A stretch of 44,414 nt of DNA from Alphaproteobacteria bacterium. GTDB lineage: Bacteria; Pseudomonadota; Alphaproteobacteria; Paracaedibacterales; CAIULA01. The stretch's first letter is position 1. Every line of letters begins with the position of its first letter. The stretch spans positions 1-44,414 of the forward strand of contig JAIEPD010000043.1 of assembly GCA_019749935.1 (NCBI GenBank), read 5' to 3'. Shown here one piece after another: positions 3,098 through 6,896 of the stretch. The notes below the pieces were generated by a model that saw only the letters and a list, made by a program, of their open reading frames with translations, was not told the origin of the DNA and did no database searches. Both the position numbers and the translations under genes were made by a program.

Positions 3098-3526
3098 ATG
3101 AAGCAGCGAAGCTGGTATCTTTTGGCTCTTATCCTCCTGGTTGGGGGAATTTCGCTTATGGTGCTGGGTGCATTAAAAGAAAATGTTGTTTTTTTTATAA
3201 CCCCGACTGAATGGCAGGAAAAAAGGCAATTTTTCGTTAAGACTAAAACTTTGCGTTTGGGTGGGCGCGTCGCTCAGGGCAGTATAGTCAAAGAAAATGA
3301 CAAGGTGATTTTTGAGATAACGGATGAAAAAACATCCTTAAAAGTTATGTGTAAAGGCACCCTTCCTGATTTATTTAAAGAAGGTCAAGGTATTGTGACT
3401 GAAGGATCCTTTGATGATCAGGGGGTCTTTATAGCTCGGCAAGTTTTAGCGAAACATGATGAAAATTATATGCCTAAAGAGGTTGCTGACAAATTAAAAG
3501 AGCAAGCTTTGTGGAGAGGGAAATGA
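3098..3526 (+). CDS. ccmE: Periplasmic heme chaperone CcmE
   Basis: CcmE binds heme covalently through a histidine and hands it to the CcmF lyase. This 142-residue protein has one N-terminal membrane anchor (about residues 6-28), a beta-barrel body with LGGRVAQGS, and the heme-binding LAKHDENYMP motif whose histidine is the attachment residue. The following tyrosine, which helps ligate the heme iron, is present. A longer frame from 3047 would overlap ccmD entirely and add residues foreign to CcmE, so ATG 3098 is preferred. Its stop overlaps the ccmF start (ATGA), implying translational coupling. Confidence 0.94.
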   Translation: MKQRSWYLLALILLVGGISLMVLGALKENVVFFITPTEWQEKRQFFVKTKTLRLGGRVAQGSIVKENDKVIFEITDEKTSLKVMCKGTLPDLFKEGQGIVTEGSFDDQGVFIARQVLAKHDENYMPKEVADKLKEQALWRGK

Positions 3527-5820
3527 TTCATTTTGTAAAATCCTTTTCTCCTTTCATCGGCCAAGGGTGCCTTTTAGGAGCAAGTATTGCAACATTTTTT
3601 CAGATTATTAGTCCGTTTAAGCGTTCTTCTTTTCTGGATCGCCACGCTACGCCCCTGATGACGGCAGAGAATAAACGTCATTGCGAGGAGCAATTGCTCT
3701 GTGGCAATCCAGGGTATGTTTTCAATTATTGGCCTTTCATAACTTTCACCTTTGTAGCCATAGCCTTTAGTCTATTGTTATGGGCGCATATCAGCTCTGA
3801 CTTTTCTTACCTAAATGTGATTCAGCATTCTCACACACTTAAACCCTTCCTGTATAAAATCAGCGGGGTTTGGGCTAATCACGAAGGGTCGATGCTGTTG
3901 TGGGTCTTGTTTTTGTGCCTTTATAATTTAATCGCCTCGCTAACTTTGCCTGATGATTTAAAAAATCCCACGAATAGGATTCTTGCGTGTCTGACTTTGG
4001 GATTTTTGTTGTTTATTATCTTGGCCTGTGATCCCTTCACGACGGTTTTGAATCCACCCCTTGAGGGTGAAGATTTAAATCCGCTTTTGCAAGATCCAAG
4101 CCTTGCCATTCACCCGCCCATTCTCTATTTAGGGCAGGTTGGTTGTTCCATTCCTTTTGCTTTATGCCTTGTGGCGCTTTTACAAAAAGATCTAACTGCT
4201 TTGACAATTCAGTGGATTCGTCTTTTCACGCTGATCGCGTGGTCATTTTTAACGACGGGTTTGGCTTTAGGCAGTTTTTGGGCCTATTATGAATTAGGTT
4301 GGGGCGGATGGTGGTTTTGGGATCCGGTTGAAAACATCGCGCTTTTACCATGGTTGACTTCAACAGCGCTTATCCACTGCCTAAGTGCAGCGCAAAAGCA
4401 ACAAACCCTACAACGAACAAGTTTATTCTTGGGTCTCTTGACTTTTGGTTTTTGTTTGTTTGGCTTATTTTTTGTAAGGTCTGGGCTTTTAACCTCTATT
4501 CATAGTTTTACCGTCGACCCTGAACGGGGTCACTTTTTATTAATACTCTTGATGTTATTTTTCGTACTGCCCTTTCTTTTATGGGTTATGAGGTTTCGCT
4601 TGTTTAGGGCAAACTCTATCTCCTCACCCTTCTCTAAAAGCGGCATGATTGCTTTAAATGCGGTGTTCTTGTTGTGTGGGACAGCAACGCTTTTTTTGTC
4701 AATCCTATATCCTTTAATTCTTGGATGGTTTGGAAAAAGCCTTACAATTGGCACTCCCTATTTTAGTGCAACGTTCATTCCCATGATGCTGCCTTTGGTA
4801 TTTTTAATGGGCCTTGGGGTTTGGATGTCTTATCTTGAGACACCCCTGAAACCTTTGTTTAAAAAATTACTTCCTGTGGGCAGTGCCAGTATTTTATCGG
4901 TTATTTTGGCCTGGCAACTTTTACCTAATGCTACGCTTTCAGCTTTTTTGATGTTAGGAGCTTCTGTCTGGCTTATGGGAAGCAGTTTTTTATACATTCT
5001 GAAAAATCCAAAAACTTTTAAAACTTTGGGAGTAGGGACTGCTCATTTTGGTATGGGACTTATGATCTTGGGAATGGTTTGGGCTAGCCAAGGGGACGTT
5101 GAAAAAGAGGTTTTTCTTAAAATCAACCAATCAACGGAAATTGCCGATTATACGTTTACACTGAAGTCTTTGAGCCAAAAAGATAGTCCAAATTACAAAG
5201 CTAACAGAGCGTTTGTCTCTGTTTCAAAAGGAGATCGTCTGATCACAATCCTAGAACCTGAAAAACGATATTATTGGACTCAAAAAACCATTCACACTGA
5301 AACATCCCTTTATTCAACGTTTCTATCCCATCTGCATGCCATGCTGCTGGATGATGAAAGAGGGCCTTACCGATTGCGCTTTTATTACAAACCTTTGATT
5401 AATCTGCTTTGGTTTGGAGTAGGCTTGATGACCTTGGGTGGAGTTTTAGCTGCCCTGAATCGTTTTAAAAAAATAATGATTTTAATGGTAATGACGACAG
5501 TCCCTGTATTTGCAGAAACAATAGGGCAAACAGCGACATCTCTTTATAAGCAAATCATTTGCCCCGTTTGCTCAGGGCAAACTCTGGCAGATTCTGGGGT
5601 TGAAGAAGCCGTTTTGATGAAAGAAGATATTTTGCGTAAGCTTAAGGCTGGAAAAACAGAAGCAGAGATTCTTGATGAACTTATTAGGGTATATGGAGCA
5701 AAAATCGTTCGAAATCCCCCGCTTGAAAAAAGCACCCTTCCGTTGTGGCTATTACCTTGGGCGTTGTTGTTAAGTTTGATCTCTGTTATTCTTTTTAAAT
5801 GGTGCCATAAATCGGGATAG
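3523..5820 (+). CDS. ccmF: CcmF-CcmH fusion: cytochrome c heme lyase with apocytochrome thiol-reductase domain
   Basis: Residues 1 to about 650 are CcmF, the multi-pass inner-membrane lyase that transfers heme from CcmE to apocytochrome c. Visible hallmarks are WANHEGSMLLWV, HPPILYLG, and the heme-binding WGGWWFWDPVEN motif. From about 652 the frame runs without a stop into a CcmH/CcmL domain: a hydrophobic lead segment ending VFAET, the redox motif CPVC (C680, C683), a three-helix body, and a C-terminal membrane anchor. In most bacteria CcmF and CcmH are separate partners in one complex, so the fusion is functionally sensible. ATG 3523 overlaps the ccmE stop and has GGAGAGGG just upstream. 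Residues 38-63 come from an inserted palindromic repeat. ccmG and ccmI are not seen here. Confidence 0.92.
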   Translation: MIHFVKSFSPFIGQGCLLGASIATFFQIISPFKRSSFLDRHATPLMTAENKRHCEEQLLCGNPGYVFNYWPFITFTFVAIAFSLLLWAHISSDFSYLNVIQHSHTLKPFLYKISGVWANHEGSMLLWVLFLCLYNLIASLTLPDDLKNPTNRILACLTLGFLLFIILACDPFTTVLNPPLEGEDLNPLLQDPSLAIHPPILYLGQVGCSIPFALCLVALLQKDLTALTIQWIRLFTLIAWSFLTTGLALGSFWAYYELGWGGWWFWDPVENIALLPWLTSTALIHCLSAAQKQQTLQRTSLFLGLLTFGFCLFGLFFVRSGLLTSIHSFTVDPERGHFLLILLMLFFVLPFLLWVMRFRLFRANSISSPFSKSGMIALNAVFLLCGTATLFLSILYPLILGWFGKSLTIGTPYFSATFIPMMLPLVFLMGLGVWMSYLETPLKPLFKKLLPVGSASILSVILAWQLLPNATLSAFLMLGASVWLMGSSFLYILKNPKTFKTLGVGTAHFGMGLMILGMVWASQGDVEKEVFLKINQSTEIADYTFTLKSLSQKDSPNYKANRAFVSVSKGDRLITILEPEKRYYWTQKTIHTETSLYSTFLSHLHAMLLDDERGPYRLRFYYKPLINLLWFGVGLMTLGGVLAALNRFKKIMILMVMTTVPVFAETIGQTATSLYKQIICPVCSGQTLADSGVEEAVLMKEDILRKLKAGKTEAEILDELIRVYGAKIVRNPPLEKSTLPLWLLPWALLLSLISVILFKWCHKSG
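3634..3712 (+). repeat. Rickettsia-like palindromic element inside ccmF
   Basis: A 79-nt segment with inverted ends: CTGGATCGCCACG at 3634-3646 and TGTGGCAATCCAG at 3700-3712 (11 of 13 positions complementary). Inside it TGACG at 3659-3663 faces CGTCA at 3676-3680. This is the widespread intergenic type whose arms read CGTCATTGCGA and GCAATCCAG. Here it sits within the CcmF reading frame, keeps it open, and encodes residues 38-63, including HCEEQLLCGNP, in the loop after the first membrane helix. Compared from memory with E. coli CcmF, this loop is about 16 residues longer. Confidence 0.8.
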
Positions 5821-6397: not shown

Positions 6398-6454
6398 AGT
6401 TGTTTTAGATAAGGATTTGCGTAATTTTCAAAGTTGCGGTGTTTTGAAGGCACT

Positions 6455-6726
6455 GTTCTGGCCTTTGCGGGGCCCACCTCGAAACCCCAAAACGGCCGCC
6501 CACCCCAGCCTCCGCCTGGTAAAAACTCTTCCCTTTTTATCACCTTTAACAGGCTTACAAAGTTCCAATCTTAGATATGGGTTCCATCCCATAAAAAAGC
6601 AGTCTATACCTTTAGATACGCGCGTATCTAAAGTTAAACACGATAAACCTTTGGCAATATGTGGACAAAGGCGGTTTTAGCAACCAGTTTCGGACCCGGC
6701 AAAAGTCGAGTCTAAACTTACCACCA
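6455..6726 (-). repeat. Structured ~270-nt dispersed repeat, copy 1
   Basis: Read on the minus strand this aligns end to end with the plus strand at 20236-20512. A 76-nt core (from CTGCTTTTTT to GGGAAGA) is identical. Outside the core, indels of 1 and 7 nt rule out a shared reading frame. Stems visible here: GGTGGT with ACCGCC near the 5' end; CCTTTG with CAAAGG; a perfect 24-nt palindrome centred on ACGCGCGT (6609-6632); and TATGGG with CCCATA around an ATGGAA loop. It is more GC-rich than its surroundings, and downstream of dedA in antisense orientation. It could be a small-RNA gene family or a non-autonomous mobile repeat. No known RNA family was recognised. Confidence 0.72.
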
Positions 6727-6750
6727 AGCCCAATATAACAAAATGGGCTT
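6726..6750. other. Hairpin next to the structured repeat
   Basis: AAGCCCA (6726-6732) and TGGGCTT (6744-6750) form a 7-bp stem with an 11-nt loop at the edge of repeat copy 1. Neither side has a strong T-run, so it is not a clear terminator. The remaining intergenic DNA to 6896 is plain AT-rich sequence in which I see nothing else. Confidence 0.4.
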
Positions 6751-6896
6751 AATAAATGGTTAAAAACAAAAAAGGGTTAAATCCAACTTTTGGTTACATC
6801 TCTATAAAACCCGCATAATGTACTGCAAAAAAATCTTTCTAACCATTCTTTAATCTGCTTCAATTAATCTATAAATTAAAATTTAAGGTAAATTTA

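Follow-up and report, generated by a model that had tools for sequence, protein, structure and literature searches.

The window analysed here, a stretch of 44,414 nucleotides from a draft alphaproteobacterial genome (G000), carries two copies of a structured element, and the question it raises is what kind of entity such an element represents. The sequence-only reading proposed either a multicopy small-RNA family or a non-autonomous mobile element. Both halves of this proposal are supported together, by covariation, a conserved promoter, terminal inverted repeats, target duplications and the presence of the element at 19 genomic places. The CtrA box, the optional 115-nt domain and recombination among copies lie beyond what that reading anticipated. 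Judged by its sequence, the element appears to be an undescribed folded RNA gene under the control of the cell-cycle regulator CtrA, spread as a small mobile element; no description of it was found in open-licence papers.

The presence of a matching element at two sites in opposite orientation was borne out by alignment, the bodies being 0.878 identical over 270 positions, and the blastn match to copy 2 (E = 2.5e-82) lies far outside chance. The 76-nt run is indeed the longest exact run common to the two copies, which also differ, as described, by one 7-nt indel and several of 1-2 nt. Likewise, the GC content (0.471 and 0.484 in the two copies) is above that of the 300-nt flanks (0.343 and 0.358) and of the window (0.398). 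The element extends beyond the stretch first recognised, with a promoter upstream and, in most copies, flanking arms with inverted-repeat ends. Copy 1 has a recombinant-looking 3' part (GAGTTTTTACCAGG) and an imperfect long-range helix; inverted-repeat ends were looked for around this copy and none was recognised. The features of the two copies are as follows.

6453-6726, minus strand: structured RNA body of copy 1, with its predicted 5' end at the GG at 6725.
6521-6692, minus strand: match of copy 1 to covariance model R2.
6527-6602, minus strand: 76-nt run identical to copy 2, from the alignment.
6732-6737, minus strand: -10-like box TATATT of copy 1, a putative -10 element by its sequence.
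6749-6763, minus strand: CtrA box of copy 1, TTAACCATTTATTAA, after the consensus TTAA-N7-TTAA quoted from PMC9437464.
20151-20159, plus strand: left decayed target duplication of copy 2, GGTAAAAAC, matching at 6/9 positions in exact register and 7/9 at the best offset.
20160-20177, plus strand: left terminal inverted repeat of copy 2, CTTATCACCCGACAAGAT, from the end consensus and pattern.
20199-20213, plus strand: CtrA box of copy 2, TTAATAATATGTTAA, from the comparison of upstream regions.
20225-20230, plus strand: -10-like box TATGTT of copy 2, likewise a putative -10 element.
20237-20515, plus strand: structured RNA body of copy 2, with its predicted 5' end at the GG at 20238.
20270-20447, plus strand: match of copy 2 to covariance model R2.
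20270-20275, plus strand: 5' strand CGAAAC of the long-range helix of copy 2; the helix is paired in 16 of 16 aligned sequences, copy 2 lying outside those 16.
20359-20434, plus strand: 76-nt run identical to copy 1, from the alignment.
20442-20447, plus strand: 3' strand GTTTTG of the long-range helix of copy 2, complementary to its CGAAAC strand.
20584-20601, minus strand: right terminal inverted repeat of copy 2, CTTGCCACGCGACAGAAT, from the end consensus and pattern.
20602-20610, plus strand: right decayed target duplication of copy 2, GGGTAGAAC, from the flank comparison.

A conserved protein, which the sequence-only reading held to be excluded, is made improbable by indels that are not multiples of three and by the lack of a Pfam family in the two ORFs that run across copies 1 and 2. 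The RNA measures 270-300 nt, or about 390 nt in copies with an extra 115-nt domain. Single-sequence folds only moderately beat shuffles (three copies have z = -2.45, -1.23 and -3.23, and the antisense strand of copy 2 has -1.21), and the case for a structure thus rests on covariation. Alignment A5 contains 16 diverged sequences from G000 and three other carrier genomes (G002, G004 and G006), excluding the extra-domain copies, the cut copies, c9 (which is near c11), c1 (recombinant 3' end) and c5 (3' end one column off). A structure of 46 pairs leaves 90.8% of its cells paired, compared to at most 52.3% for slid partners, with double compensatory changes at 26 of the 46 pairs, and none of 500 shuffles matches any of five measures; this test favours the structure, since the pairs were set by hand on the same alignment. 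In alignment A7, comprising 40 copies from all six carrier genomes fitted to the model, double changes are seen at 37 of 39 pairs. The long-range helix is paired in all 16 sequences of A5, its CGAAAC/GUUUUG form being replaced by CGUGAU/GUCAUG in G004 (AUCAUG in one copy). Among the stems first proposed, the GGNGGT/GCCGCC stem proved weaker than stated. The middle pair of that stem is A-G or A-A in 6 of 13 copies and is without support, and its 3' strand is also used by two better supported helices; the stem was rejected.

Two sequence motifs are kept within the fold to different extents. The hexamer [AGU]UGGAA (RUGGAA or UUGGAA) is present in 36 of 40 sequences; in G000, G006 and G004 it makes up a hairpin loop, but in G034 it is found elsewhere than in this loop. 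Fewer sequences, 13 of the 40, keep the stretch GAUURGAACUUUGUAARC (all from G000, G002 C63 and G006). The absence of a recognisable RNA family was upheld in Rfam 15, where the window at the gathering score yields tRNA only and four loci searched at E <= 5 yield nothing on the element. By eye, no intrinsic terminator was seen after the RNA. A G-rich segment of the 3' domain (window 20452-20469, plus strand, and the same place in other copies) fits a two-tier G-quadruplex; the motif occurs in 32 of 43 copies, compared to 29% of shuffles, is missing in 11, and no claim is made for it. The idea of a CsrA sponge, prompted by GGA noted by eye in RNA loops, is not adopted.

The check named by the sequence-only reading, a search for further copies, found the element by blastn at 19 places in its own genome of 1.89 Mb; model R1, built from the core, gives 23 matches there, 11 of them single and the others representing 6 copies split in two. 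Eleven copies lack the extra domain, including one (C43) in which unrelated sequence begins just after the core; six carry the extra domain of about 115 nt, which sits after the GAUACGCGCGUAUC hairpin, and two are 3' fragments at contig ends. In the six extra-domain copies (L050, L051, L052, L053, L054 and L055) the domain is closed by GUUUCAAA/UUUGAAAC, and at a locus common to G000 and G002 it is present in the former (L050) and absent in the latter (L058). The two 3' fragments (L057 1-124, and L099 on the minus strand at a contig end) have the same unrelated upstream sequence and lie at contig ends; they are possibly a further recombinant or chimeric form.

Five other genomes also hold the element; they comprise one from its own genus, two from its family, one from a different family of the order and one from another lineage of the class. 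The six carriers hold 3 to 19 places each, 57 in total, with 19 in G000, 3 in G002, 18 in G004, 5 in G006 and 5 in G034 (the latter four by model R2 at E <= 0.01), and 7 in G112; all are drafts, and several copies lie at contig ends. Two of the carriers were recognised by a pattern scan, JAIEMR01 (a MAG labelled Alphaproteobacteria) being G002 and DAHVSZ01 (Candidatus Paracaedibacteraceae) being G006. Blastn detects the element in 4 of 38 relatives, its own genome counted, model R1 in 4 of 42 genomes of the order, and model R2 (E <= 0.01) in 5 of 38, namely G000, G002, G004, G006 and G034, the last from another family of the order. Seven other genomes listed by R2 at E <= 1 all have E > 0.1 and look like noise, and G001, G003, G005 and G007 have no copies at E <= 0.01. 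Across a 385-genome sample of the class, R2 gives two carriers, G000 and G112, the latter representing another family and being the sole sampled genome of its order; seven candidates were scored per genome, and absence elsewhere in the class is therefore lightly tested. A third class-level match, in G231 (model R3, E = 0.0064), has no CtrA box and coding-like surroundings and was set aside as chance. Copy 1 has no match in phage and plasmid records, nor has one core pattern in IMG/VR.

How the element came to be so dispersed is indicated by its borders. The G000 element moved as DNA, since it is bounded by 18-bp inverted-repeat ends and decayed 9-bp target duplications; of the two routes first suggested, spread as DNA is thus supported by transposition traces, and spread as RNA is unsupported. 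In copies 2 and c8, where both ends were hit, the unit measures 442 and 437 bp (about 115 more with the extra domain), running in copy 2 from 77 nt upstream of the RNA to about 100 nt beyond GGGCCCC. The ends agree with one another at 16 of the 18 positions of the consensus, CTTACCAYCCGACARGAT, from which c1 and c3 were excluded because their flanks could not be aligned. At three mismatches or fewer, the end pattern has 17 hits in G000, ten of them at known copies; a rough estimate puts chance hits at about 4, yet the reversed control gave 0. The repeats are visible in the consensus only, as in single copies 1 of 17 rises above its 200 shuffles. Among the seven hits away from copies, five in coding-like sequence look by eye like chance and two belong to another repeat; the 17 hits in this draft genome include no autonomous element with the same ends. 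When the 9-bp flanks of 12 G000 copies were compared, with ends placed by hand, at least 7 of the 9 positions agreed in six copies, compared to 5 of 132 cross pairs (permutation P 0.0001), as would be expected of old, decayed target duplications; in 6 of the 12 a duplication is unconvincing. In G000 the element thus has the hallmarks of a MITE: terminal inverted repeats, target-site duplication, short length and no transposase gene. The ends of G112 copies are unlike those of G000: C13 carries the repeat CTTCTTTCGAAAC at each of its ends, C15 and C30 (whose left ends are cut) have it on the right, and C5 has an imperfect form on the left. In G002 C5/C7, G004 and G034, inverted-repeat ends were not recognised. 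A second palindromic MITE-like repeat occupies about 35512-35728 of the window (minus strand; CTTGTCATCYCGGAA ... CCGGAATGACAAG); it starts with an end resembling that of the RNA element, and contig C80 holds a related stretch (80%, 107 nt).

Occupied and empty sites were compared between genomes. The site at rph is occupied in G000 and empty in G001 and G002, and G004 has its own diverged copy beside rph; the G000 and G004 copies were first read as vertically inherited, a reading weakened by the empty sites. The tRNA-Glu site is occupied in G000 and G002 and empty in G001, and the site upstream of ctrA is occupied in G000 and empty in G001. G001, which belongs to the same genus and is 91% complete, has no copy; it does have ctrA, and the RNA is thus not required in every member of the genus. 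One insertion is common to G000 (C85) and G002 (C63), with flanking proteins 91-97% identical. At this locus identity is 0.89 for the RNA, 0.83 for the promoter, 0.74-0.75 for the arms and 0.86-0.95 for the outer flanks, so that no other part of the element is as well kept as the RNA; conversion could partly account for its higher conservation, and the outer flanks are equally well kept.

These traces also bear on the main rival explanation, that of a purely selfish element whose RNA would help only its spread, for example through transposase recruitment or CtrA timing, and would bring the host nothing. Such an element would have the observed inverted-repeat ends, target duplications and empty sites, as well as the patchy presence (0 copies in G001, G003, G005 and G007), and alphaproteobacterial phages are described, in a passage of PMC9437464, as carrying CtrA boxes too. 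It sits less well with a fold and promoter that are kept while the ends differ between genomes, and with an RNA better kept than the arms at the G000/G002 locus, although conversion from active copies could mimic the latter. Taken together, a purely selfish nature is unlikely, yet it is the most credible of the rivals.

The promoter is the second feature that the copies have in common. In the 46 of 57 places that provided an upstream region (the other 11 having no usable anchor, being cut by a contig end or being fragments), TTAA-N7-TTAA occurs exactly in 28 and with at most one mismatch in 40. The box lies at about -39 to -25, starting 36-41 nt before the 5' GG, and in most upstream regions a TATATT-like box follows at about -12. 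Thirteen other spacings (2-6 and 8-15) give 0-6 of the 46 regions, dinucleotide shuffles of the regions give a mean of 1.38 and a maximum of 6, and the 44 kb of the window hold nine TTAA-N7-TTAA, two of them at the copies. With one mismatch allowed, the box is present in 16/17 regions of G000, 3/3 of G002, 11/13 of G004, 3/3 of G006, 5/5 of G034 and 2/5 of G112. The CtrA consensus appears as TTAA-N7-TTAA in one source (PMC9437464, in the portion available) and as TTAA-N7-TTAAC in another (PMC9791040, likewise), and the accessible text of PMC11264516 places the CtrA box at -35 in CtrA-activated promoters. In sequence terms, the upstream layout of the RNA copies is that of CtrA-activated promoters. 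A ctrA gene was found in nine of ten genomes checked, 60-70% identical to the Caulobacter protein; among these ten, it was not found in G006, though five copies of the element are present there.

According to another alternative, the motif is an ordinary AT-rich -35 region in which CtrA plays no part. The promoters are very AT-rich, sites are imperfect or halved in G112 and part of G004, and G006 has copies and no ctrA match. Against it, spacing 7 alone is enriched, at one position and in several lineages, and the motif is the published CtrA consensus quoted above; this alternative is judged improbable.

The copies exchange sequence as well. Mosaic pairs (c13/c14, c9/c11, c5/c9 and c12/c17, the last with c17 ending at its contig end) have tracts of 100% identity flanked on both sides by diverged sequence. 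Between the -10 box and the end of the RNA, C5 and C7 of G002 agree at 291 of 296 positions, with flanks that are unrelated, and in G004 the likeness of C206 and C151 starts exactly at the 5' GG. Conversion between scattered copies would best explain the mosaics; single cases may be assembly chimeras. The identical tracts and the sharp borders in G002 and G004 would also suit a regulatory RNA gene of the host that had multiplied without transposition, through ordinary duplication and recombination. Conversion between already scattered copies also gives sharp borders of identity, however, and ordinary duplication fails to provide the ends and target duplications found in G000; a role for it in place of transposition is accordingly rather improbable.

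The neighbouring genes were surveyed as the 51 nearest ORFs of at least 100 aa around 31 of the 57 places (the scan omits copies found later in G004, G034 and G112); 42 of them have a Pfam family and 9 have none. They are ordinary genes in both orientations, among them ctrA, polA, rph, ftsK, fumC, trmD, rplS and gap (names other than ctrA, rph and fumC being read from domains), and by Pfam they include no reverse transcriptase, transposase or HNH-type nuclease. Some neighbours recur: rph at c4 and g4_C3, an ABC transporter pair at c7 and g4_C3, and a DEAD-box helicase near c13 and g6_C99, besides ABC ATPases and MFS transporters, which are general families. In G000, the ctrA gene on contig C93 is preceded, at a distance of about 230 nt and on the same strand, by an RNA copy (L040 2762-3274, minus strand); G001 has no copy upstream of its ctrA. 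In G006 (L061 2678-3098, minus strand), a tmRNA gene matching both the alphaproteobacterial and the permuted tmRNA models lies about 2.4 kb from an RNA copy. Within the window, a 769-aa ORF at 3511-5820 (plus strand) has CcmF domains (PF01578 and PF16327) followed by CcmH (PF03918), an apparent CcmF-CcmH fusion.

The copy before ctrA and the recurring neighbours would suit a cis-acting leader, riboswitch or attenuator of a downstream gene; no gene family is a regular downstream partner among the 51 neighbours, which are mixed housekeeping genes in both orientations, and such a leader is thus disfavoured and very improbable. Least credible of all is an insertion-sequence fragment, decayed coding gene or assembly artefact, as some copies do lie at contig ends and drafts often collapse repeats, but the indels out of multiples of three, the two ORFs without a Pfam hit, the RNA-type covariation and the presence in six genomes all speak against it.

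The element therefore probably represents a CtrA-timed, trans-acting structured RNA whose genes are scattered by transposition and kept alike by recombination. What was computed is how many copies there are, their fold and promoter motif, their ends and target duplications, the sites occupied or empty and the mosaics; transcription, CtrA binding, action in trans, a binding partner and a source of transposase are inferred. Each copy would be its own transcription unit, in which a CtrA box at -35 and a -10 box precede a folded RNA of some eight predicted helices, most of them enclosed by the long-range helix. At one stage of the cell or developmental cycle, phosphorylated CtrA would activate every copy, producing a pulse of one folded RNA that may act in trans, most likely via protein or mRNA binding; a candidate contact is the RUGGAA loop of one hairpin, which most copies outside G034 retain. 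The gene would have been scattered in the chromosome inside short DNA units with inverted-repeat ends, using a transposase presumably supplied from elsewhere, and recombination among copies would keep them alike.

Several known systems resemble parts of this arrangement. Correia, RUP, ERIC and similar bacterial MITEs are short and dispersed, with inverted repeats and without a transposase gene, and mostly consist of one palindrome, unlike the present element, which has a multi-helix RNA between its ends. HEARO/IscB omega RNA, retron RNAs and group II intron RNAs are structured RNAs tied to mobile DNA; the element differs from all three in having no Rfam match (four loci, E <= 5), and from retron, group II intron and IscB RNAs in lacking a reverse transcriptase, transposase or HNH gene among the neighbours surveyed. 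Correia elements carry promoters, according to the part of PMC10969869 available.

The nearest mobile sRNAs are those of the QMITE elements of Coxiella burnetii, and the nearest CtrA-linked ncRNA is CcnA, as far as the accessible portions of the two sources describe them. QMITE1 and QMITE2, with some 50 dispersed elements per family, resemble the present element in being short and dispersed, with terminal inverted repeats and direct repeats, and in serving as a source of sRNAs (CbsR3, CbsR13 and CbsR16). As described there, QMITE promoters lie upstream of the insert, or the -10 alone lies inside it, whereas here most copies have a full conserved promoter; QMITE copies are often degenerate or truncated and a covarying fold is unreported in that text, whereas here one fold extends across distant lineages (PMC5896051). 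CcnA of Caulobacter crescentus is a single gene of 182 nt at the origin, proposed to act on the ctrA and gcrA 5' UTRs through a CCCC loop that pairs with their leaders; compared by description, it differs from the present element in that the available text mentions no mobile or multicopy form (PMC8959179). The upstream regions resemble CtrA-activated promoters such as those of pilA and fliQ, where a near-consensus TTAA-N7-TTAA overlaps the -35; those promoters, in the passages at hand, drive protein genes, whereas here the motif travels with a repeated RNA gene (PMC11264516).

MITE-derived sRNAs and CtrA-linked ncRNAs are thus each known, from the sources as far as they were accessible, and searches of the open-licence literature gave no report of their combination, a structured RNA gene that is mobile and multicopy and has a conserved CtrA promoter. 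The element offers a concrete RNA, promoter and structure for testing in bacteria that may develop under CtrA control, and the family could be curated from the alignments and covariance models. It would also be a natural example of a cell-cycle regulator capturing a mobile element, or being captured by one, and the combination could link jumping DNA, RNA and development in symbiont-like bacteria. A bolder and more tentative possibility, less likely than the explanation above, is that the element may be a bacterial counterpart of SINEs: non-autonomous mobile DNA that carries as its payload a folded RNA gene driven by a developmental promoter of its own. Such DNA may have entered distant symbiont-like Alphaproteobacteria and plugged itself into the CtrA circuit (once directly upstream of ctrA), so that a CtrA-timed pulse of an abundant, possibly protein-bound RNA might have become part of development in some lineages.
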